This document shows positions 2,720-17,366 of a DNA stretch of 64,000 bases, piece after piece; position 1 is the first letter of the stretch; each line of letters begins with the position of its first letter. Position numbers and translations under genes: made by a program. Below the pieces are notes generated by a model. It had not been told where the DNA came from. It saw only the letters and a program-made list of their open reading frames with translations, and ran no database searches. Source of the DNA: Pseudoxanthomonas japonensis (GTDB lineage Bacteria; Pseudomonadota; Gammaproteobacteria; Xanthomonadales; Xanthomonadaceae); the NCBI RefSeq assembly GCF_010093445.1, contig NZ_PDWW01000005.1, forward strand, positions 1 to 64,000, read 5' to 3'.

Positions 2720-2893
2720 GGGCTGGCGGCGGGGTGTCGCCGCGCAGCCTGCGCCCGGCGGGCGACAGCGCCGTGTCCGTTTTCTGGCAGTCCGGTGACA
2801 ACGCCGGTCGACCTGCCCTTAACCCGGTGGCAACCCTGAACAGCGCAGAATGCACGCACCCGTCCCGGCGTGTATCATGCGCGCCCATCTTTT

Positions 2894-2913
2894 CATCCGA
2901 ATCAAAGGATATA
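2894..2913 (+). promoter_or_regulatory. Met-cycle motif CATCCG-N8-GATATA upstream of metK
   Basis: The CATCCG half is at 2894-2899 and GATATA at 2908-2913, ending six bases before the metK ATG. The same two hexamers with the same 8-base gap precede ahcY and metF. The site overlaps a plausible ribosome-binding sequence (AAAGGA, 2904-2909), and a possible -10 (TATCAT, 2873-2878) lies upstream. A bound repressor here could block both elongation and ribosome access. The binding protein is unknown. Confidence 0.55.
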
Positions 2914-2919
2914 AGCCCG

Positions 2920-4131
2920 ATGTCCAGCTACCTGTTCACCTCCGAATCGGTCTCCGAAGGCCATCCGGACAAGATCGCCGACCAGATTTCCGACGCCGTG
3001 CTGGACGCGATCCTGGCCCAGGACAAGCGCGCACGCGTGGCCTGCGAGACGCTGGTGAAGACGGGCGCCGCCATCGTGGCCGGCGAAGTCACCACCACCG
3101 CGTGGGTGGACATCGAATCGCTGGCCCGCAAGGTGATCAACGACATCGGCTACGACAACTCGGACGTCGGCTTCGACGGCCACACCTGCGCCATCATCAA
3201 CATGCTGGGCAAGCAGTCGCCCGACATCAACCAGGGCGTCGACCGCAAGAAGCCGGAAGAACAGGGCGCGGGCGACCAGGGCCTGATGTTCGGCTACGCC
3301 TGCAACGAGGCGCCGGAATTCATGCCCGCCCCGCTGTACTACAGCCACCGCCTGGTGGAACAGCAGGCCAAGGTGCGCAAGAAGGGCAAGCTGAAGTGGC
3401 TGCGTCCCGACGCCAAGTCGCAGGTCACCCTGCGCTACGACGGCAACACCGTGCTCGGTCTCGACGCCGTGGTGCTGTCGACCCAGCACGATCCGGACAT
3501 CAAGCAGAAGGACCTGATCGAGGCCGTGCGCGCCGAGATCCTGGTGCCCGTGCTGCCGAAGAAGTGGCTGGACGCGCTGCCGAAGAACAAGGTGCACATC
3601 AACCCGACGGGCAAGTTCGTCATCGGCGGCCCGGTGGGCGATTGCGGCCTGACCGGCCGCAAGATCATCGTCGACAGCTACGGCGGCATGGCCCGCCACG
3701 GCGGCGGCGCGTTCTCGGGCAAGGATCCGTCGAAGGTCGACCGTTCGGCCGCCTACGCCGCGCGCTACGTGGCCAAGAACATCGTGGCCGCCGGCTTGGC
3801 CGACAAGTGCGAAGTGCAGGTCTCCTACGCCATCGGCGTGGCCGAGCCGACCTCGATCTCGGTCACCACGTTCGGCACCGGCAAGGTCGGCGACGACGTG
3901 ATCGAGAAGCTGATCCGCAAGCACTTCGACCTGCGTCCGTACGGCATCACGAAGATGCTGGACCTGGAGCACCCGATCTACCAGCCGACCGCCAGCTACG
4001 GCCACTTCGGCCGCAAGCCGAAGGAAATCAGCTACGTCGACGCCGCCGGCAAGAAGCACACCGCGACCACCTTCTCGTGGGAGAAGACCGATCGCGCAGA
4101 GGCGCTGCGCAAGGACGCCAAGCTGAAGTGA
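2920..4131 (+). CDS. metK: S-adenosylmethionine synthetase
   Basis: Forms S-adenosylmethionine from ATP and methionine in the cytoplasm and supplies methyl groups to the cell. The 403-residue length is normal for the family. The N-terminal [20 protein letters not shown] signature, the [10 protein letters not shown] block, and the glycine-rich [19 protein letters not shown] block with its phosphate-binding residues are all present. The ATG at 2920 gives the family-typical N-terminus [10 protein letters not shown] and has AAAGGA 10 bases upstream; the upstream in-frame codons are not conserved-looking. It is divergent from the acyltransferase gene, with a 200-base shared promoter region, and is followed by two hairpins. 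The upstream motif shared with ahcY and metF suggests common control of the SAM cycle. Confidence 0.97.
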
Positions 4132-4139
4132 CGACCCGG

Positions 4140-4164
4140 CGCGCCTGCGGACGCAGGCGCCTTT
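4140..4164 (+). terminator. GC-rich hairpin after metK
   Basis: An 8-bp stem (GCGCCTGC at 4141-4148 with GCAGGCGC at 4153-4160) with a 4-base loop is followed by CTTT. It starts nine bases after the metK stop and is a plausible first transcription terminator. Confidence 0.6.
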
Positions 4165-4171
4165 GCCGGGC

Positions 4172-4200
4172 CGTCATCCCCGTGCAGGCGGGGATCCCGT
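4172..4200. repeat. Short hairpin repeat (catcccc...gggga type)
   Basis: ATCCCC at 4176-4181 and GGGGAT at 4190-4195 enclose a short loop. Sequences of this form (catccccg...cggggat) are common dispersed intergenic repeats in xanthomonads and other proteobacteria. Only this copy was noticed in the window, so calling it a repeat rests on general knowledge. Confidence 0.4.
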
Positions 4201-4215
4201 GCCTTTGATTCAGAG

Positions 4216-4244
4216 AACGGGCCGCTCATGCGGCCCGTTTGCTT
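4216..4244 (+). terminator. Strong intrinsic terminator of metK
   Basis: A perfect 10-bp stem (AACGGGCCGC at 4216-4225 with GCGGCCCGTT at 4230-4239) has a TCAT loop and is followed by TGCTTT. The remaining bases to 4390 contain another small inverted repeat (agcggagcttgctccgct, around 4255-4272) and no gene. Confidence 0.8.
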
Positions 4245-4390
4245 TGCCGTCATAGAGCGGAGCTTGCTCCGCTGCTTCTGTGCGCGCTCGCCCGCCCCCC
4301 CCAGCCGGGCAAGCTGGGCTCTACGCGAGGCGGTGCAACGCCGCGGGAAGAATGGGTTAGCCTGCCCGCCAGTTCTCCTGTGGACACGCC

Positions 4391-4891
4391 ATGGACACCC
4401 TGAAAAGCCACCAGCTATCGATGACGGTGCTGATGACCCCGGACATGGCCAACTTCTCCGGCAAGGTCCACGGCGGTGCCATCCTCAAGCTGCTCGACCA
4501 GGTGGCCTACGCCTGCGGCAGCCGCTACGCGGGCAAGTACGTGGTCACGCTGTCGGTGGACCAGGTGATGTTCCGCCAGGCGATCAACGTGGGCGAACTG
4601 GTGACCTTCCTGGCCTCGGTCAACCACACCGGTATCTCGTCGATGGAAATCGGCATCAAGGTGGTGGCCGAGGACATCCGCAAGCAGAGCGTGCGCCACG
4701 CCAACAGCTGCTTCTTCACCATGGTCGCGGTGGACGACGACGGCCGCCCCACCCCGGTGCCCGCGCTGGAACCCGGCACGCCCGACGAGGTCCGCCGCTT
4801 CGCCGCCGCTCGCCTGCGCCGGGAGTTGCGCGAGGAAATGGAGCAACGGCATGCCGCCCTGCTCGGCACGAAAGCGCACGCCGTCGACTGA
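4391..4891 (+). CDS. Hot-dog-fold acyl-CoA thioesterase
   Basis: This 166-residue protein has the single hot-dog domain of the YciA/BACH acyl-CoA hydrolases. The FSGKVHGGAILKLLDQ helix (22-37) carries the conserved HGG and the candidate catalytic Asp36, and the strands VTLSVDQVMF and SSMEIGIKVV follow. It should hydrolyse acyl-CoA to free acid and CoA in the cytoplasm; chain-length preference cannot be read. The C-terminal tail (about 130-166) is rich in Arg and Glu and probably helical. It ends 40 bases before uup and may be its own transcription unit. Confidence 0.88.
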   Translation: MDTLKSHQLSMTVLMTPDMANFSGKVHGGAILKLLDQVAYACGSRYAGKYVVTLSVDQVMFRQAINVGELVTFLASVNHTGISSMEIGIKVVAEDIRKQSVRHANSCFFTMVAVDDDGRPTPVPALEPGTPDEVRRFAAARLRRELREEMEQRHAALLGTKAHAVD

Positions 4892-4919
4892 GTACCGCCG
4901 GTGACCGACCCGCGCCCGG

Positions 4920-4925
4920 TACAAT
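4920..4925 (+). promoter_or_regulatory. -10 box TACAAT of a probably leaderless uup mRNA
   Basis: TACAAT is followed by exactly six bases and then the uup ATG at 4932. That would place the transcription start on or next to the start codon. No purine-rich ribosome-binding site fits between. The -35 region is poor. The same arrangement is seen before thiS, thiG and the RDD gene. Confidence 0.5.
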
Positions 4926-4931
4926 GGGCGC

Positions 4932-6797
<1,866 letters not shown>

Positions 6798-6813
6798 GGC
6801 GGCGGGATGCTGG

Positions 6814-6880
6814 TGTGGGAGCGACGTAAGTCGCGATGAAACATCGGTAACACGTCATCGCGACTTACGTCGCTCCCACA
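6814..6880. repeat. REP-like palindrome, 26-base perfect arms
   Basis: The arm at 6814-6839 (begins tgtgggagcgacgtaagt) is repeated inverted and without mismatch at 6855-6880, around a 15-base centre. A related element with 23-base arms is at 60021-60090. It sits between the convergent ends of uup and ppc, where it may act as a two-way transcription barrier. Such short palindromes are typically spread by REP-associated tyrosine transposases. Confidence 0.75.
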
Positions 6881-6893
6881 CCGGGATCCCACA

Positions 6894-9617
6894 TCACCCG
6901 GTGTTCTGCACGCCCTGCGACACGCCGTTGATGCTGGCGACCAGCGCGTGCAGCAGCGCGTCGTCCTCGCGGTCGCTGTCGCGCCAGCGCTTCAGCAGGT
7001 CGGCCTGCATCACGCTGATCGGGTCGATGTAGGGATTGCGCAGGCGGATCGACAGCGCCAGCCGCTGGTCGTGCTGCAACAGCCACTCGTTGCCGTTGAG
7101 CGCCATCACCCACTTCGCCGCGGCGGCATGCTCGTGCTGCACGCGCGGGAAGAATTCGCCGTGCAGGTCGCCCGACATCTTCGAGTACATCTCGGCGATG
7201 CTCAGGTCGCCCTTGGCCAGCACCATCGAGATGTCGTCCAGGAAGGTCTTGAAGAACGGCCAGTCGCGCGCCATCTCCTTCAGCGCCTCCTCGCCGTACG
7301 TGTCCACGGCGGCCTGCAGGCCGGTACCCACGCCGTACCAGCCGGGAATCACCGCGCGCGCCTGGCTCCACGCGAACACCCACGGGATCGCCCGCAGGTT
7401 GCCGAGCGCCGCGTCCTGTCCCAGCCGGCGCGACGGGCGCGAGCCCAGCGTCATCCGCTCGATCACGTCGATCGGCGTGGCGGCACGGAAGTAGTCCATG
7501 AAGCGCGGCGACTGCACGAACGCGCGATAGGCCTGCGAGCTCTCCTGCGCGACCAGCGCCATGATCTCGCGCCATGTCGCCTCGCGCGGCTCCGGCGGAC
7601 GCGGGCGCAGGCTCGACAGCAGCACCGCACCGACCGACTGTTCCAGCGAACGCAGTGCCAGCGCACGGATGCCGTACTTGCGGTGGATCACTTCGCCCTG
7701 CTCGGTCACGCGCAGGCGGCCATCGACGCTGCCACGCGGCGCCGCTTCCAGCGCACGCGTGGTCTTGCCGCCGCCGCGGACGATCGAGCCGCCGCGTCCG
7801 TGGAAGAACGTCAGCTTGATGTCCAGCTCCTGGGCGGCATCGACCAGGTCGACCTGCGCCCGCTGCAGGCCCCAGCGCGAGGCGGCGATGCCGCCGTCCT
7901 TGCCGCTGTCGGAATAGCCCAGCATCACCATCTGCACGTTGTCGCGGGCCGCAAGGTGCGCGCGGTAGACCGGATCGGCCAGCAGGTCGCGCAGCACCCC
8001 GGTGCCGTGGCCGAGGTCGTCGATGGTCTCGAACAGCGGCGCGATATCGAGCGGCACCTGTCCTGCGTCATCGACCAGCCCGCCCCGGCGCGCGAGCGCC
8101 AGCACGGTCAGCACGTCGGCGCGGCTGTGCGCCATGCTGATGATGTAGGTGCCCAATGCATCGGTGCCGTGGCGCGCGCGCGCATCGGCCAGGGCGCGGA
8201 AGACGGCGTCCAGGCGCTCGTTGCCTTCCTGATCCGATGCCGGCAGCACGTTCTTGCCACTGGCGTAGGCACCGAGTTGCGCGGCGCGCTCGACAGCGGC
8301 GCGCTCCTCCCATCCGTCATCCCCGAGCGCGCTCGCGACAGCGCGCGCATGCACGCTGGATTCCTGCCGCACGTCCAGTCGCGCGAGGTGGAAGCCGAAC
8401 GTGCGCACGCGCCAGGCCAGCCGGCGGATCGCGAACCAGCCCGCATGGATGCCGCGGTTGGCTTCCAGGCTGTGCAGGATCAGGTCGACGTCGCCGGCGA
8501 GTTCTTCCGGTGACGTGTAGGCCTCGGGCCTGTCTTCCAGCGTGGCCTGCAGGCGCGCGCGCATCAGGTCGTTGAGCAGGCGGTACGGCATGTCGCCGTG
8601 GCGCGGGCGCGACTTCTTCGCGGCCTCGGGCATCAGCGCGCGGTACGCTTCCACGCGTGACAGCACCCCGGGCGACACGCCGATCACCGAGGTGGACTGG
8701 CTCAGCAGCGTGGTGAGCTGGCGCAGCTCCTTCAGGTAGCGGGTGAGGATGGAGCGGCGCTGTGCATTCAGGGTGGCGGTGATCGTGCCGGCATCCACGT
8801 TCGGATTGCCGTCCATGTCGCCGCCCACCCACGTACCGAAGCGCAGGACCCGCGGCAGGTGCGCGGCGACCTGAGGCGCGGCGCCGTAGACGTCGGTGAT
8901 CGCGTTCTCGAAGGTTTCGTACAGCACCGGAATGACGCGGTAGAGCACTTCGATGAGGTAGAAACCGACGTGTTCGCGCTCGTCCTCGACGCCCGGGCGC
9001 ACCGGCGACGAATCGGAGGTCTGCCAGGCCGACGTCAGCGCCATGCGGAAGCGCGCGGTGTCGGTGGCCAGTTCGCCCGGCGTGCGCGTGCCGTCCAGCC
9101 CGTTGATCAGGCTGGCCACCATCAGCTGCTCCTTCTCCAGCAGCGCGCGGCGCACGGCTTCGGTCGGGTGCGCGGTGAACACCGGCTCCACGTCGATGCG
9201 CGGCAGCCAGTCGGCCAGTTCGTCCAGCGTCACGCCCTGCGCCTTGAGCTTGGACAGCGTGTCGTGCAGTCCGTCGGGCTGCGGTCGCGCACTGCCGGCG
9301 CGCTGATACTCGCGCCGTCGGCGGATGCGGTGCACGCGCTCGGCGATGTTGACCACCTGGAAATACGTACTGAACGCGCGGATCAGCGCCTCGGCCTGGG
9401 CCGGCGCCTGCCCGTCGAGCAGTCCGGCCAGCGACTGCGGCGGTTCGCCCGCCTGACGGCGCGCGATGGCGGTGGTGCGCACGCGCTCCACGTCGGCCAG
9501 GAACTGCGGCGACACCTGTTCGGCCAGCATGTCGCCGACCAGGGCGCCCAGACGGCGCACGTCTTCACGCAGGGGGACATCGGGGGGAGCGAATTCGAGA
9601 CTGCGGGGGCTGTTCAT
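6894..9617 (-). CDS. ppc: Phosphoenolpyruvate carboxylase
   Basis: Carboxylates phosphoenolpyruvate with bicarbonate to oxaloacetate, an anaplerotic step of the TCA cycle. The 907-residue length is normal. Catalytic blocks are present in order: FTAHPTEA with the catalytic histidine, [47 protein letters not shown], and the conserved C-terminus ending QNTG. The ATG at 9617 gives [12 protein letters not shown] and then the first conserved helix; an ATG 27 codons upstream adds residues with no family character. It is divergent from ahcY. Confidence 0.96.
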
Positions 9618-9741
9618 GCGTGGCGCGTGGATCCCGTCGTTCGGTTGGCCTGTATTGGTATTGTCCCGGCGGACAACTGGTCTGCTGCAAGGCAGCATTC
9701 CGGAGCCTACCCGATCAGGGGTGATACGTGCGCCATCGTTT

Positions 9742-9761
9742 CATCCGGAACCAGCGATATA
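9742..9761 (+). promoter_or_regulatory. Met-cycle motif CATCCG-N8-GATATA upstream of ahcY
   Basis: CATCCG is at 9742-9747 and GATATA at 9756-9761. The GATATA half overlaps the -10 hexamer TATAAT (9758-9763), so a protein bound here would compete with RNA polymerase. The same motif and spacing occur before metK and metF. Confidence 0.6.
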
Positions 9762-9763
9762 AT
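9758..9763 (+). promoter_or_regulatory. Consensus -10 box TATAAT of ahcY
   Basis: A perfect TATAAT lies about 12 bases before the first base of the SAH riboswitch, which fits a transcription start near 9770. The -35 region (around 9735-9740, atcgtt) is weak. Confidence 0.65.
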
Positions 9764-9772
9764 GGCGCCCCT

Positions 9773-9846
9773 TCGCCGAGGGGCGCTGCGACCGTGACCT
9801 GGAGTCCGGCCAGGCTCGGTGGAACGAACCTGCAACGGCGCCCGGC
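9773..9846 (+). ncRNA. SAH riboswitch in the ahcY leader
   Basis: The leader has the conserved order of the S-adenosylhomocysteine riboswitch: CCGAG (9776-9780), GGGCGCTGCGACC, then CCAGGCTCGG, and a final AACGGCGCCC (9834-9843). Two long-range pairings can be drawn by eye: GGGCGC (9781-9786) with GCGCCC (9838-9843), and CCGAG (9776-9780) with CTCGG (9815-9819). The second would be the pseudoknot. In characterised members, SAH binding turns on expression of SAH-recycling genes. The element ends about 40 bases before the ahcY ATG, so control of translation initiation is plausible; no terminator stem is obvious. Confidence 0.88.
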
Positions 9847-9884
9847 CAACCTGCGACCCTGATCGCACAGACCGGAGCAATGCC

Positions 9885-11327
9885 ATGAACGCAGTACGCA
9901 AGTTCTCGACCGAGGGTGACTACAAAGTCGCCGACATTTCGCTGGCCGATTGGGGCCGCAAGGAACTCGACATCGCCGAGCACGAGATGCCCGGCCTGAT
10001 GTCGATCCGCCGCAAGCACGCCGCCACCACGCCGCTGAAGGGCGTGCGCGTGACCGGCTCGCTGCACATGACCATCCAGACCGCCGTGCTGATCGAGACG
10101 CTGAAGGACATCGGCGCCGACGTGCGCTGGGCCTCGTGCAACATCTTCTCGACGCAGGACCACGCCGCCGCCGCGATCGCCGCGACCGGTACGCCGGTGT
10201 TCGCGTGGAAGGGCGAGACGCTGGAAGAGTATTGGGACTGCACGCTGGACGCGCTGTCGTTCCCCGACGGCAAGGGCGGCTTCCTCGGCCCGCAGCTCGT
10301 CGTCGATGACGGCGGCGACGTGACGCTGCTGATCCACAAGGGTTACGAGCTGGAACAGGGCGACGAGAGCTGGGTCGACAGCGCATCGGGCAGCCACGAG
10401 GAACAGGTGATCAAGGACCTGCTCAAGCGCGTCGCCAAGGAACGCCCGGGCTACTGGACCAGGGTCGTCGCCGACTGGAAGGGCGTGTCGGAAGAAACCA
10501 CCACCGGCGTGCACCGCCTCTACCAGCTGGCCGAACAGGGCAAGCTGCTGATCCCGGCGATCAACGTCAACGACTCGGTCACCAAGTCGAAGTTCGACAA
10601 CCTGTACGGCTGCCGCGAGTCGCTGGCCGACGGCCTGAAGCGCGCGCTCGACGTGATGCTGGCCGGCAAGGTCGCCGTGGTCTGCGGCTACGGCGACGTG
10701 GGCAAGGGTTCGGCGGCATCGCTGCGCGCCTACGGCGCCCGCGTCATCGTCACCGAGATCGATCCGATCTGCGCGCTGCAGGCGGCGATGGAAGGCTATG
10801 AAGTCACCACCGTCGAGGACACCCTCGGCCGCGCCGACATCTACGTCACCACCACCGGCAACAAGGACATCATCACCCTCGCCCACATGAAGGCGATGAA
10901 GGACCAGGCGATCGTCTGCAACATCGGCCACTTCGACAACGAGATCCAGGTCGATGCGCTGTACGCCTCGGGCGCCACGCGCACCAACATCAAGCCGCAG
11001 GTCGACAAGTTCACGTTCGGCAACGGCAACGCGATCTTCCTGCTCGCCGAAGGCCGCCTGGTGAACCTGGGCTGCGCCACCGGCCACCCGAGCTTCGTGA
11101 TGTCGAACTCGTTCTCGAACCAGACGCTCGCGCAGATCGACCTGTGGGCGAACAAGGACGCGTACGAGTCTAAGGTCTACATCCTGCCCAAGCAGCTCGA
11201 CGAGGAAGTCGCGCGCCTGCACCTGGAGAAGATCGGCGTGAAGCTGACCACGCTGACCAAGGACCAGGCCGACTACCTGGGCGTGTCGGTCGAAGGCCCG
11301 TACAAGCCGGATCACTACCGCTACTGA
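9885..11327 (+). CDS. ahcY: Adenosylhomocysteinase
   Basis: Hydrolyses S-adenosylhomocysteine to adenosine and homocysteine in the cytoplasm and relieves product inhibition of methyltransferases. The 480-residue protein includes the NAD-binding glycine-rich [18 protein letters not shown] block, the substrate-binding [14 protein letters not shown] and [16 protein letters not shown] blocks, and the C-terminal family ending KPDHYRY. The ATG at 9885 gives the standard N-terminus and has CGGAG nine bases upstream. It is controlled by the SAH riboswitch and probably by the CATCCG/GATATA element. A strong terminator follows, so it is not co-transcribed with the sugar genes downstream. Confidence 0.97.
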
Positions 11328-11353
11328 TCGCTGCGGTTCCGCTGCGACAACGG

Positions 11354-11385
11354 AACGGGCGCCTTCGGGCGCCCGTTCTGCATTT
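11354..11385 (+). terminator. Intrinsic terminator of ahcY
   Basis: A 10-bp perfect stem (AACGGGCGCC at 11354-11363 with GGCGCCCGTT at 11368-11377) has a stable TTCG tetraloop and is followed by CTGCATTT. Confidence 0.8.
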
Positions 11386-11541
11386 CACGCAGCGAGTGGC
11401 CGTCGCACGCCTTCCTCCGCAACCATTTCGATACCGCTGGGCGCTTGCCTCGCTTCGGCGATCATCGCAAGCTTGGCCGCCGTACCGTCGCCCACGCCTG
11501 CATCGGGTCTGCGGCGCGACGACCCAGCACCGGGAGTGGAC

Positions 11542-12942
11542 ATGCAACGCGACCAGGGGAGCGGCGGTATCGCGCACCCCGCCGACAAGGCACCATCTTC
11601 GACGGAACCCCGGTTGGGCGAAAAGGTCGGCTACGGCGTCGGCGACTTCGGCTTCAATCTCTACTGGGCGAACATCTCGGCGTTCCTGCTGATCTTCTAC
11701 ACCGACGTGATGGGGCTGGCCGCCGCCGCGGTCGGCACCATGATGCTGGTCACCAAGATCGTGGATGCCGTCACCGACCCGTTGATGGGCGCATTGGCCG
11801 ATCGCACCCGCAGCCGCTTCGGCCGCTTCCGTCCCTACCTGCTCTACGGCGCGCTGCCGCTGGCGTTCACCGGCGTGCTGACCTGGACCGTGCCCGACCT
11901 GGGCGACGGCGGAAAACTGGTGTGGGCCTATGCGACCTTCACCCTGATGATGCTCGCCTACACCGTGCTGAGCATCCCCTACTCCGCGCTGTCGGGCGTG
12001 ATCACCGCCGACAGCCAGCAGCGCACGCAGCTGATCAGCTTCCGCTTCATCGCGGCGTTCGCCGGCACGATGGCGGTGAACTGGCTGACGCTGGACCTGG
12101 TGCGCTGGCTGGGACGCGGCGACGAAGCGCTGGGTTGGCAGCTGACATTGTCGCTGTACGGCGTGATCGCCACGGCGGCCTTCGTCACGGTGGCGCTGAC
12201 CACGCGGGAACGCGTGGCGCCGCCGGCCCAGCAGGCCAGCAACGTGCGCCAGGATGTCGTCGACCTGCTGCACAACCGGCCGTGGATGGTGCTGTTCGCG
12301 CTGGCCCTGATCATCATGGTGACCATCGTGATGCGCGGTGGCTCACTGGCCTACTACCTGAAGTACCACCTCGGACGGCCCGACCTGACCGGCTTGTTCC
12401 TGGGCACCTACGCGCTCGCCCTGGCCGTCGGCGCCGGGCTGACGCCGTTGATGACGCGCTACGTGGACAAGCGGCGACTGATGGCAGGGCTGATGGCGGG
12501 CGTCGGAATAGCGAGTTGCGCAATGTTCTTCATCCCGCCCGGATCCGTCTGGTGGATGTTCGCCCTCAATCTGCTGGTCGGGCTGATGCTGGGCCCCAAA
12601 TCGCCGTTGGCGTTCTCCATGTACGCCGACTGCGCCGACTACACCGAGTGGAAGACCGGACGCCGTGCCACCGCGATGACCTTCGCCGCAGCGACGTTCT
12701 CGCAGAAGCTCGGCGGTGCGCTGGCCTCGGCCACGATCGCATGGATCCTCGCAGCCATGGGCTACGTGGCGAACGCGTCGCAGTCGGACGCATCGCGGCT
12801 GGGCATCGTGCTGCTGCTGACGGTGATTCCGGGCGGCGTCGCGCTGCTGGCGGCGTGGGTGATGCGCTTCTATCCCCTCGACGGCGCCACCCTCGCGCAG
12901 GTGCAGGCCGACCTGCGGGCGCGGCGGGAGGTAACGGCATGA
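11542..12942 (+). CDS. GPH-family sugar:cation symporter (candidate cellobionate importer)
   Basis: This 466-residue integral membrane protein has about 12 hydrophobic segments. It has the glycoside-pentoside-hexuronide symporter pattern: [16 protein letters not shown] near the start, then [30 protein letters not shown] in the first cytoplasmic loop. It should import a sugar or sugar acid with H+ or Na+. The ATG at 11542 is preferred because GGGAG lies five bases upstream; a further 23 codons are open upstream. It overlaps the GH94 gene by ATGA and precedes gluconokinase, so the likely substrate is a gluconate-containing disaccharide such as cellobionate. That assignment is by context only. 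Confidence 0.82.
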
Positions 12943-15311
12943 CGGACGTCCCGTACGGCTTCCAGGAAGCAGGCCGCCGCTTCGTCCTGACCAGCCCCAC
13001 CGCGATGCCCTCCGCGTCGACGTTCCTGTGGAACCGCCGGATGCTGCTGCAGCTCAACTGCCGCGGCTTCGCCACCGCGCAGTTCATGCAGCCGGAGCCG
13101 GCCAAGTACGCGCACGCGCCTACGCTGGAGGCCAAGACCTTCATGCAGCCGGAGCAGCCGTATTACGCGCACCATCCGGGCCGCTTCTGCTACGTGAAGG
13201 ACGAGGAGGACGGCGCGCTGTTCTCGGTACCGCACGAGCCGGTGCGCCGCGCGCCGGAGGCCTTCGCGTTTTCGGTCGGCCTGAGCGACGTCGCGTGGCG
13301 CGTGCAGTGCGCGGGCATCGAGGTGGAAATGAGCGTCGTGCTGCCCACCGACGACGTGGCGGAACTGTGGACGCTGCGCGTGCGCAACCGCGCCGGCCGG
13401 CGACGACGGGTGAGCCTGTATCCGTATTTCCCGGTCGGCTACATGTCATGGATGAACCAGTCCGGCCGCCATCGCGCCGAGCTGGGCGGCATCGTCTGCG
13501 ACAGCATCGCGCCGTACCAGAAGGTCGAGGACTACTTCCGCCAGCGCGACTTCAAGGACCGCACCGTGCTGCTCTACGAACAGGCACCGGATGCGTGGGA
13601 GGCCAACCAGGCGCAGTTCGAAGGCGAAGGCGGGTTGCACGCGCCGCAGGCCATCGCCGGCCAGGATCGCCTGGGCGGCGGCGACGCGGCCTACGAGATG
13701 CCCACCGCGGTGCTGCAGTATCGCGTCGACCTGGAGGACGACGAGGTACGGGAGTATCGCTTCGTGTTCGCGCCCGCGCGCGACGACGACGAGATCCGGC
13801 AGCTCCGCACCCGGCATCTGTCGCCGCACGGGTTTTCCGACGCCGCTGCCGCCGGCGGGGCATACATCGATGCCGGTAGCGGCTGCCTGAGCATCGAAAC
13901 GCCCGACCCCTGGCTGGATGCCTTCGCCAACCATTGGCTGCCTCGGCAGGTGTTCTACCACGGCGACGTGAATCGCCTGACGACGGACCCGCAGACGCGC
14001 AACTACCTGCAGGACCACATGGGCATGGGCTACCTGCGCCCCGAGGTTGCGCGCACCGCTTTCCTGCATGCGCTCTCGCAGCAGGAACCGTCGGGCGCGA
14101 TGCCGGACGGCATCCTGCTGACGGAAGGCGCGGAGCTGAAGTACATCAACCAGATTCCCCACACCGACCACGCGGTCTGGCTGCCGGTCTGCCTGCGCGC
14201 CTACCTGGACGAAACCGGCGACGATGCCCTGCTGGACGCGCCGGTGACCGATCGCGAGGGTCACGTCGCAACGGTGTCCGAGCGCATCACCCGGGCGATG
14301 CGCTGGCTGCTGCAGGCCCGCGACGCACGCGGTCTCAGCTACATCGCACAGGGCGACTGGTGCGATCCGATGAACATGGTGGGCTGGCGTGGACGCGGCG
14401 TGTCCGGCTGGCTGACGCTGGCCACCGCCCACGCGCTGAAGCAGTGGGCGGAGATCTGTGCGCGACGCGGTGAGGATGCGCTCGCCGGGGAATGCCGCCA
14501 GGGGGCGGACGCCTGCAACAACGCCATGGATAGCCACCTCTGGGATGGCGACTGGTACGGCCGCGGCATCACCGATGACGGCGTCGCCTTCGGCGTCGGC
14601 AACGATCGGGAAGGCCGCATCTTCCTGAATCCCCAGAGCTGGGCCATGTTGAGTGGCGCCGCCGACGCGGCCAAACGCACGCGCATGCTGGCCGCCATCG
14701 ATGCGCACCTGGTATCGCCCTACGGCGTGGCGATGTTCGACCCGCCGTACACGCGCATGCGCGAGGACGTGGGCCGGGTGACACAGAAGTTCCCCGGCTC
14801 GGCGGAGAACGGTTCGGTCTACAACCATGCCGCGGCGTTCTACCTCTACAGCCTCTATCGGGTCGGTGACGCCGACCGGGCCTGGCAGGTGTTGCGCGCC
14901 ATGCTACCGATGCCCGACGCCACCGACTGCCTGCAGCGCGGGCAGTTGCCGGTGTTCGTGCCGAACTACTACCGCGGCGCGTGGCGCCTGCATCCGCGTA
15001 CCGCGGGCCGTTCCAGCCAGTTGTTCAACACCGGCACGGCGGCGTGGCTGTACCGCTGCCTGGTGGAGGAACTGTTCGGGCTGCGTGGCGAGGGCGATGC
15101 GCTGCGGATCGCGCCGCAGCTGCCCTCGCACTGGCGGTCGGCGCGCGCGACGCGCAGCTTCCGGGGCGCGACGTTCGAGGTCGCCATCGAACGGGTGGAC
15201 GGCATCGCGGAGACGCGGGTCGCCGTGGATGGTGTCTGGCAGGACGACACCAGGCTGCGCGGCTTCGACGCTGGCCGCACGTACCAGGTGCGCGTCGAGC
15301 TGCCGGCATGA
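12939..15311 (+). CDS. GH94 phosphorylase, probable cellobionic acid phosphorylase
   Basis: This 790-residue cytoplasmic protein has the GH94 architecture: an N-terminal beta-sandwich (about 1-290), then an (alpha/alpha)6 barrel. The loop [14 protein letters not shown] (470-483) contains D473 and D476, one of which should be the general acid; many cellobiose phosphorylases read GDWND here. The phosphate-site region is represented by [20 protein letters not shown] (about 610-629). Cellobionate phosphorylases, described from Xanthomonas campestris and Neurospora, convert cellobionate and phosphate into alpha-glucose 1-phosphate and gluconate. A gluconokinase gene follows directly with a 4-base overlap, which fits cellobionate better than cellobiose. 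It is translationally coupled to the upstream transporter. Confidence 0.8.
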
Positions 15312-15820
15312 GCGGGCACGTCCGCGTCGTCGTGGTGATGGGCGTGTCGGGCAGCGGCAAGACCACGCTGGCGCGCGCCTTGGCCGATGCCTGGCCGGCG
15401 ACGTTCCTCGATGCCGACGACGTCCACAGCCTGGCCGCGAAAACGCGGATGGCTGGAGGTCAGCCACTCACCGACCGCATGCGCGCGCCCTGGGTGCGCC
15501 GGATCGCCTTGGACCTGCAACGCCGGGTGGCGGCGGGCGAGCGCGTGGTGCTGGCGTTCTCCGGCCTGCGCCAGCGTCATCGCGACCGGCTGCGTGCGAC
15601 CGGACTGCCGATGAAATTCCTGTTCCTGCACGGCGACGCGGCGCTGATCGCGGCGCGTATGCAGGCACGTCGTGGCCATTACATGCCGGCATCGCTGCTG
15701 GACAGCCAGTTCGCCACGCTGGAGACGCCCGTGGACGAAGCCGATGTCGTGCGGATCGACGCGGCCGAACCGCCCGCCGTACAGCTGCGGCTTGCCTTGG
15801 CGGCGCTGCAGCCGGATTGA
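15308..15820 (+). CDS. gntK: Gluconokinase
   Basis: This 170-residue P-loop kinase of the GntK type phosphorylates D-gluconate to 6-phosphogluconate. Walker [10 protein letters not shown] is at about 12-20. LDADDVHS and the following [20 protein letters not shown] match the gluconokinase substrate loop, which usually reads NKxKMxxGxPLxDxDRxPW. The ATG overlaps the stop of the GH94 gene, so the products are probably made in step. It would feed gluconate released by the phosphorylase into the pentose-phosphate or Entner-Doudoroff route. Length and motifs are normal. Confidence 0.9.
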
Positions 15821-15827
15821 GCGGACG

Positions 15828-16385
15828 CTACGGACGCCAGTTGGCATTGCGCTCCCAGAACGCGACGCTCCGCCGATAGGCCTCGCGATCGATCGGCACG
15901 CCCGAGCCACCCTCCTCCACGCCCAGCGCGTTGCGCATCATCGTGATGGGCGCCATCGGGATCTCTTCCGGCGTCTGCGTGTACAGGCAACCGACGATGC
16001 CCCAGTCGCCCTCGATCGGCGCCCCCTCCTTCGCCAGCTGCACCGCGCTGTAGAGGATCACGACCAGGTAGTCGGCCACCGGCGGTTCCACGCCTTCGAA
16101 CCAGCGCACCAGCACGGGCAGTTCGGACGACGAGCGCGCCTCGTAGGACGAGCGGAGCAGATGCCGGTTGTCGTCGGTGATGGGGACCGTCAGGCAGCGG
16201 GTCGACGTCCAGTTGCGATGCACGTGCAGCCGGCAGAACGGCGCATAGCCGTCGAGCACGGCCACGGGCGCTTCCCCGCTGAGGCGCTGCTCGAAAGCTT
16301 CGGGAGTGCAGTCCTGGATGGCATTGCGGCGCCGGTCGGCGGGAAAGAGGCGGGTGCGGGCGAACGGGGTGAGGACGATCGTCAT
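15828..16385 (-). CDS. DUF3228 family protein
   Basis: This 185-residue protein of unknown function is conserved in xanthomonads and recognisable as DUF3228. Conserved-looking stretches are LTPFARTRLFPADRRRNA at the start, LHVHRNWTSTRCLTVPIT, LPVLVRWFEGVEPPVA, and PITMMRNALGVEEGGSGVP near the end. No signal peptide or membrane segment is present. The ATG at 16385 is chosen because the preceding open frame runs into the metF promoter and has no family character. It converges on gntK, with a seven-base gap, and is divergent from metF. Confidence 0.75.
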   Translation of the reverse strand: MTIVLTPFARTRLFPADRRRNAIQDCTPEAFEQRLSGEAPVAVLDGYAPFCRLHVHRNWTSTRCLTVPITDDNRHLLRSSYEARSSSELPVLVRWFEGVEPPVADYLVVILYSAVQLAKEGAPIEGDWGIVGCLYTQTPEEIPMAPITMMRNALGVEEGGSGVPIDREAYRRSVAFWERNANWRP

Positions 16386-16483
16386 GCAGTGGCCTCCGGA
16401 ATCATCGCGACAGCGTACCCGCGACGCCCTGTCGCCGCGTCCGGCGCCGTGCATGCCGTCGGGAGCGCGAGTTGATCAACATC

Positions 16484-16503
16484 CATCCGGATGAAGCGAT
16501 ATA
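16484..16503 (+). promoter_or_regulatory. Met-cycle motif CATCCG-N8-GATATA upstream of metF
   Basis: CATCCG is at 16484-16489 and GATATA at 16498-16503. The right half overlaps a -10-like TATACT (16500-16505), as in the ahcY promoter. The left half is part of a 10-base palindrome CATCCGGATG. The metF ATG is 30 bases downstream. Confidence 0.6.
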
Positions 16504-16532
16504 CTTCCCGCACGACCCGAACGGCGCTGCCC

Positions 16533-17366
16533 ATGCCCTCCCTGAGTTTCGAGTTCTACCCGCCCAAGACCGACGAGCAGCGCGCGCAGCTGGACCGCAC
16601 CGCCGGCAAGCTGAAGGCGTATGGACCGGAATATGTGTCCTGCACGTTCGGCGCGGGCGGCTCCACGCTCAGCTACACCTCCGAGACGGTCCGCCACCTC
16701 AACCAGCACCATGGTTTCGACGCCGCGCCGCACCTGTCCTGCGTGGGCGGCAGCCGCGAGGAAATCCGCGAACTGCTGCGCCTCTATCGCGCGCTGGGCT
16801 GCAAGCGCATCGTCGCGCTGCGCGGCGACCTGCCGTCCGGCATGGGGCATCCAGGCGACCTGCGCTACGCGTCGGAGCTGATCGACTTCATCCGGGCCGA
16901 GCATGGCGACACCTTCCACATCGAAGTCGGCGCCTACCCCGAGACGCATCCGCAGGCGGAAGACGCGCTGACCGACCTGCGCCACTTCAAGGCCAAGGTC
17001 GACGCCGGTGCGGACGGCGCGATCACCCAGTACTTCTACAACCCGGATGCGTATTTCCACTTCGTCGATGCGGTGCGCAGGCTGGGCGTGGAGATTCCGA
17101 TCATTCCGGGCATCATGCCGATCTCCAACTTCTCGCAGTTGCGGCGGTTCTCGGAAGCCTGCGGGGCGGAGATCCCGCGCTGGATCGGCAAGCGCATGCA
17201 GGCGCTCGGCGACGACGCCGAGGCGATCCGCGATTTCGGCGCCGACGTGGTGGCCAACCTGTGCGAACGCCTCGTCGCAGGCGGCGCACCGTCGCTGCAT
17301 TTCTACACGCTCAATCTGGCCAAGCCGACCCAGACCGTCCTGTCGCGGCTGGGCTGGAAGGCCTGA
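16533..17366 (+). CDS. metF: Methylenetetrahydrofolate reductase
   Basis: Reduces 5,10-methylene-THF to 5-methyl-THF, the methyl donor for methionine synthesis; it is an FAD-dependent TIM-barrel enzyme. The 277-residue protein has SFEFYPPKT at its start, VSCTFGAGGST, the ALRGDLP substrate loop, IEVGAYPE, a GADGAITQYFYN block and IIPGIMPI. The ATG at 16533 gives the family-typical N-terminus; an in-frame ATG at 16491 falls inside the promoter motif and is rejected. In related bacteria metF is usually close to ahcY; here the sugar cassette and the DUF3228 gene separate them. Confidence 0.95.
   Translation: MPSLSFEFYPPKTDEQRAQLDRTAGKLKAYGPEYVSCTFGAGGSTLSYTSETVRHLNQHHGFDAAPHLSCVGGSREEIRELLRLYRALGCKRIVALRGDLPSGMGHPGDLRYASELIDFIRAEHGDTFHIEVGAYPETHPQAEDALTDLRHFKAKVDAGADGAITQYFYNPDAYFHFVDAVRRLGVEIPIIPGIMPISNFSQLRRFSEACGAEIPRWIGKRMQALGDDAEAIRDFGADVVANLCERLVAGGAPSLHFYTLNLAKPTQTVLSRLGWKA

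Follow-up and report, generated by a model that had tools for sequence, protein, structure and literature searches.

The closest described system is that of SamR, a distant SahR homologue of the Xanthomonadales with about 30% identity to SahR, whose gene lies beside metH1 and metH2 (Leyn et al., 2014; PMC4239095). As given in the accessible text of that study, the SamR operator extends over 24 bp as a palindrome and has ATC-10 nt-GAT in common with the sites of SahR; the published targets are metB, metE (in Xylella), metF, metK, metX2 and hom. The same text leaves the choice between S-adenosylmethionine (SAM) and S-adenosylhomocysteine (SAH) as the SamR effector undecided, leaning to SAM since, apart from metK, the regulon lacked SAM-cycle genes, and its picture of the Xanthomonadales places metE and one metF under the control of MetR. 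A survey from 2016 reports SamR in four genomes, with 17 sites by our reading of the table in its accessible part (PMC5343134). Here we analysed a 64,000-nucleotide stretch of Pseudoxanthomonas japonensis (NZ_PDWW01000005.1, positions 1 to 64,000; hereafter the window), in which metK, ahcY and metF are each preceded by the element CATCCG-N8-GATATA. Judged from sequence comparison, these three elements are very probably operators of SamR.

Exact copies of the element are found on the + strand at 2894-2913, 9742-9761 and 16484-16503, each before one of the three genes, as the initial annotation of the window had claimed, and comparing the three sequences reproduced its count of 14 invariant positions out of 20. 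The genome (4,075,313 bases, 74 contigs) holds no further exact match, where about 0.09 would be expected from base composition, and all three precede SAM-cycle genes. When up to three mismatches were allowed, the window held 21 places against a shuffle mean of 19.7, none of them with one mismatch and one with two. Reading the same promoters in related genomes revealed that the 20-mer is an off-centre part of a 24-bp palindrome, ATC-N5-ATC-N2-GAT-N5-GAT, which consists of two overlapping ATC-N10-GAT cores offset by 8 bp. The annotated element is real and operator-like, and the symmetric unit is the 24-mer. This unit matches its own reverse complement at 18 of 24 positions before metK, 16 of 24 before ahcY and 12 of 24 before metF, where the outer-left ATC is missing. 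The right half had further been described as overlapping the -10 box at ahcY and metF, and it does (TATAAT at 9758-9763, TATACT at 16500-16505); the terminal TATA of GATATA belongs partly to these boxes and not to the operator alone.

The predicted operator before metK spans 2887..2910 (+; ATC at 2887 and 2895, GAT at 2908; 20.9 bits) and is followed by the SAM synthetase gene at 2920..4131 (+), an open reading frame with Pfam S-AdoMet_synt domains. Here the right half overlaps the likely ribosome-binding region (AAGGA, 2905-2909) and not a -10 box. A likely -10 box, TATCAT, is located at 2873..2878 (+) and is visibly kept in many relatives; if it serves as such, the operator would lie just after the transcription start. 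A terminator-like stem at 2867-2885 overlaps this likely -10 region, just ahead of the operator. Before ahcY, the predicted operator covers 9735..9758 (+; ATC at 9735 and 9743, GAT at 9756; 20.2 bits) and overlaps the likely -10 box TATAAT (9758..9763, +). It is followed by an SAH riboswitch (RF01057, 9772..9850, +; 60.1 bits, cut-off 37) and the SAH hydrolase gene itself (9885..11327, +; Pfam AdoHcyase), and the initial proposal of an operator layered on the ahcY riboswitch is supported. The predicted metF operator is found at 16477..16500 (+; inner ATC at 16485, GAT at 16498; 20.4 bits), overlapping the likely -10 box TATACT (16500..16505, +), which was a promoter-like match in a promoter scan, and upstream of the methylenetetrahydrofolate reductase gene (16533..17366, +; TIGR00676 above its cut-off). 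The encoded MetF is 91% identical to a Pseudoxanthomonas record, and the best named match of AhcY is a Rhodanobacter record (90%).

The genome encodes a suitable regulator. Among its eight matches to the ArsR helix-turn-helix family, one gene on contig 16 directly precedes metH1 and metH2, forming a samR-metH1-metH2 row. The samR gene (L040:5196-6125) encodes a 309-residue product in which an ArsR-family winged helix (HTH_5) is fused to a SAM/SAH-binding domain of the methyltransferase type (Methyltransf_11), metH1 (L040:6122-7207) carries the homocysteine S-methyltransferase domain (S-methyl_trans), and metH2, which follows it on L040, holds the single match in the genome to the methionine synthase activation domain (Met_synt_B12). 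SamR carries the SAM/SAH-binding motif DIASGDG, which shows no variation across the 30 nearest SamR sequences, all from the same family. A copy of the operator with all four half-sites, ATCTCTATATCGCGATAGGAAGAT, abuts the samR start codon. We assign the three window elements to SamR because the site matches the published SamR operator and because of this gene row. The initial annotation had proposed an operator for a common regulator, which agrees with the published SamR operator and with the clustering before methionine genes described below, the evidence being comparative throughout. Of the candidates it had listed (MetJ, MetR and SahR), an SahR-like protein fits, while MetJ (PF01340) has no match in the genome although the Escherichia coli control was positive.

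In order to follow the palindrome across the order, 60 genomes were chosen: nine of this genus, 20 from further genera of the family (one each), 22 of a second family and nine others. Gene matches were found in 60/60 genomes for metK, 60/60 for metF and 59/60 for ahcY. Upstream DNA was covered for metK in 60, metF in 60, samR in 43 and ahcY in 59 genomes, 55 of the latter with a recognisable riboswitch core; the four ahcY genes lacking such a core were left out. ATC-N10-GAT occurs upstream of samR in 43/43, metK in 58/60, metF in 44/60 and riboswitch-led ahcY in 25/55 cases, and control spacings of 4-9 and 11-17 gave mostly 0-4 occurrences at the same genes. The spacing of the full palindrome, N18, was found at samR in 43, metK in 58, ahcY in 24 and metF in 21 genomes. 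All 12 half-site letters are present before samR in 42 of the 43 genomes and 11 of 12 in the remaining one.

At ahcY, sites are present in 9/9 genomes of this genus, 6/20 of the other genera of the family, 9/22 of the second family and 1/4 of the others. Within 27 named records, ATC-N10-GAT lies no more than 300 bases from ahcY in nine, and in seven of these immediately ahead of the riboswitch (Dokdonella and Pseudoxanthomonas with two records each; Thermomonas, Lysobacterales and Nevskiales with one each). Of the remaining two matches, one lies further upstream (L064), and the other (L063) was discounted as a site since its position is past the riboswitch core. No ahcY site is present in the Xanthomonas and Stenotrophomonas records examined, a possible reason for the absence of this gene from the 2014 list. 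In 10 of 11 named records, the metK site is 25-26 bases upstream of the start codon, the only match in the Nevskiales record being at 104. As contrary outcomes, the initial annotation had named unbiased genomic matches and poor conservation in relatives; what we found are exact matches before SAM-cycle genes in three cases out of three and a conserved spacing.

We then searched at genome scale with a sequence-only model, R1, trained on 48 of 49 sites before samR, metK, metF and ahcY; the excluded site, before a metF gene that follows ahcY in G239, was judged spurious. On the + strand of the window, R1 found just the three sites, all of which belong to the training set, together with the metF site read in reverse. 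In the whole genome, at E<=0.1, it recovered the four training genes and three new palindromic places, namely before a metX-metB-hom row, before metE, and between genes for a TonB-dependent receptor and a DUF3574 protein. Two weaker candidates in or beside unrelated reading frames (C17:8837 and C11:361434; E 1.2 and 2.1) were dropped. At the same threshold, a search of 14 genomes, comprising this genus plus five other genera with one genome each, returned 91 rows corresponding to 74 distinct sites: metK 14, samR 13, metX 12, the receptor locus 10, ahcY 10, metF 8, metE 6 and an unrelated TonB receptor 1. Hence, 73 sites precede one of the six genes or the one receptor locus. The last match (G013:C1:927671) was counted apart, as its receptor is a different one with 33% identity. 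Owing to the way R1 was built, matches at its four training genes are mostly to be expected; 28 sites precede genes outside the training set (metX 12, TonB receptor/DUF3574 locus 10, metE 6). Applied to 34 genomes from other families of the same class, R1 gave three matches against a chance expectation of 3.4. The clustering check suggested in the initial annotation, covering this and related genomes, was therefore strongly positive, with sites before samR-metH, metE, metX-metB-hom, metK, metF and ahcY.

Among the operators predicted in the genome, the one between the TonB-dependent receptor and DUF3574 genes (L376:741-5636, G000:C3) scores highest (21.6 bits), and a match at this locus was present in 10 of the 14 genomes. 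The DUF3574 gene is followed by one for a 527-residue protein that resembles a membrane transporter and has no Pfam match. It is possible that this is an uptake locus of the methionine regulon.

Several results weigh against the assignment to SamR. Neither metK nor ahcY received a promoter call in the promoter scan. Some other spacings were raised in the 60 genomes, with N4 in 20/60 at metK and N6 and N14 in 14/60 and 13/60 at metF, where N17 (6/60) also exceeded the usual 0-4. The metF gene has no site in 16 of 60 genomes; in five of the siteless genomes (G268, G239, G185, G225 and G274), metF lies 78-186 bases behind ahcY, four of them have an ahcY operator, and the ahcY promoter may serve these downstream metF genes. 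Two of the 60 genomes, G005 and G030, have samR and lack the metK site. In a further set of 26 genomes, metK was matched in 22 and 21 upstream regions were readable; the metK site was present in 8/10 genomes with a strong samR match versus 6/11 without, a comparison that did not discriminate. Most samR-negative assemblies were fragmented, so the absence of samR there is uncertain. The metK site is missing in G011 and G021 (completeness 99%; best samR matches at E 5e-9 and 9.5e-10), but also in two samR-bearing genomes from their family, G066 and G030. G129, an assembly of 290 contigs with a completeness rating of 99%, has no strong samR match and retains the site.

The predicted operators are repeatedly found next to riboswitches. 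A SAM-I riboswitch (RF00162) follows the metX site in 12/12 R1 metX matches, and in this genome it stands together with a SamR-type operator before the metX-metB-hom row (L375:3831-4003, G000:C26). A cobalamin riboswitch (RF00174) was found at 6/6 R1 metE sites, in the six genomes with such a site, and in each of them the metE operator begins 25-26 bases into the riboswitch match (L377:5257-5280 on G000:C11 in this genome, as well as L390, L407, L419, L420 and L423). Together with the SAH riboswitch of ahcY, three riboswitch classes in one genome are thus paired with one kind of DNA operator. According to structure alignments of two of the metE regions (L377 and L419), the operator coincides with a hairpin of the cobalamin aptamer that we take to be P2. 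RNA folding compared with shuffles gave z scores of -4.9 and -6.5 for metE sites, -1.2 for metK and -0.9 for ahcY. Because the ATC/GAT letters are kept at metE where a hairpin alone would not need them, the data argue for a double use of this sequence, as a predicted SamR operator and as an aptamer hairpin.

These data also bear on other explanations of the element. That it acts as a leader RNA structure and not as DNA would suit the metE palindrome with its coincident hairpin and an RNA fold far stronger than that of shuffles. The ahcY and metF copies, however, overlap the -10 box and are probably untranscribed, and folding of the metK and ahcY sites is not clearly above the shuffle level, which makes this account extremely improbable. 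A conserved promoter layout, with GATATA as a -10 box extended upstream and without any regulator, would explain the overlap of the right half with TATAAT and TATACT at ahcY and metF. It does not explain why the metK element lies past the likely -10 box and over the ribosome-binding region, why the samR copy abuts the start codon, or why the metE copy is placed within a riboswitch; moreover, the motif is palindromic, and its left half and fixed N10 are kept at different promoter positions. We consider such a layout very unlikely to be the whole explanation.

Another methionine regulator, be it MetR, MetJ or a second ArsR protein, could also bind these sites instead of SamR. The eight ArsR family matches in the genome leave room for this, as do the published role of MetR at metE and one metF and the failure of the comparison of genomes with and without a strong samR match to discriminate. 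Against it stand the lack of a MetJ match, the position of a site before samR-metH itself and the agreement with the ATC-10 nt-GAT reported for SamR, so that we regard a different regulator as improbable and retain SamR as the protein that most plausibly recognizes the element.

We infer that SamR would bind the 24-bp operator and block transcription, releasing or tightening as the SAM/SAH state changes. The register of the operator relative to the promoter varies: SamR would cover the -10 region at ahcY and metF, the likely -35 region at metX and, downstream of the likely -10 box, the first transcribed bases at metK and metE, and probably also those at samR, where the operator lies against the start codon. 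This variable position fits a polymerase-blocking repressor and not a promoter element, and SamR presumably acts in this way. At ahcY, metX-metB-hom and metE, the riboswitch might then provide a second, RNA-level check.

The conservation of the ahcY operator in this genus weakens the argument for SAM as the effector and keeps SAH open. Since ahcY appears to belong to the regulon, SamR may respond to SAH, or to the ratio of SAM to SAH, and not to SAM alone. The SAH riboswitch is turned on by SAH; if SAH also releases SamR, the ahcY operator and riboswitch would act in the same direction. The ahcY operator makes the question of SAM versus SAH testable with one promoter. Taken together, we tentatively posit, with more doubt than confidence, that a single repressor sensing SAM/SAH is matched, gene by gene, with three riboswitch classes, that the metE stretch is both operator and P2 hairpin, and that SamR senses SAH or the SAM/SAH ratio. 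If true, SamR and the SAH, SAM-I and cobalamin riboswitches would represent a natural example in which control by related metabolites is stacked at the transcriptional and RNA levels, and the metE stretch would be constrained by DNA binding and by RNA folding at once.

The finding is well explained by the regulator predicted in 2014, and the extensions, namely ahcY, the receptor locus and the pairing with three riboswitch classes, among them the metE hairpin with its proposed double use, deserve attention. A literature search of titles and abstract openings, with subscription papers outside its scope, returned no report of ahcY or the receptor as SamR targets or of an operator within the metE riboswitch, and the accessible part of PMC11124144 held nothing relevant. 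Relative to this accessible literature, ahcY and the receptor as predicted targets and the pairing with SAH, SAM-I and cobalamin riboswitches are new.

The system described here resembles the SamR regulon, as far as the accessible text describes it (PMC4239095), in the SahR-like gene beside metH1-metH2, in the 24-bp palindrome with ATC-10 nt-GAT, and in its targets, with metK and metF in the window and metX, a metB-like gene and hom, as well as metE, elsewhere in the genome. It differs in that ahcY, a target in 9/9 genomes of the genus, is absent from the list published there, in the added TonB-receptor/DUF3574 locus, and in that three targets also carry riboswitches. With SahR, an SAH-responsive member of the ArsR family whose core targets in the same source are ahcY, metH, metF, metK and its own gene, it shares the ATC-N10-GAT core; the SahR site is described as a 20-bp palindrome, whereas here two such cores, offset by 8 bp, overlap to give 24 bp. 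The SAH riboswitch RF01057 stands before ahcY as in known cases, but here a DNA operator precedes it on the promoter. A known operon likewise pairs a DNA-binding regulator of the SahR kind with a riboswitch, of a different class and in a different lineage. Compared with that operon, three riboswitch classes are combined here with one regulator, and the metE operator lies inside the aptamer.

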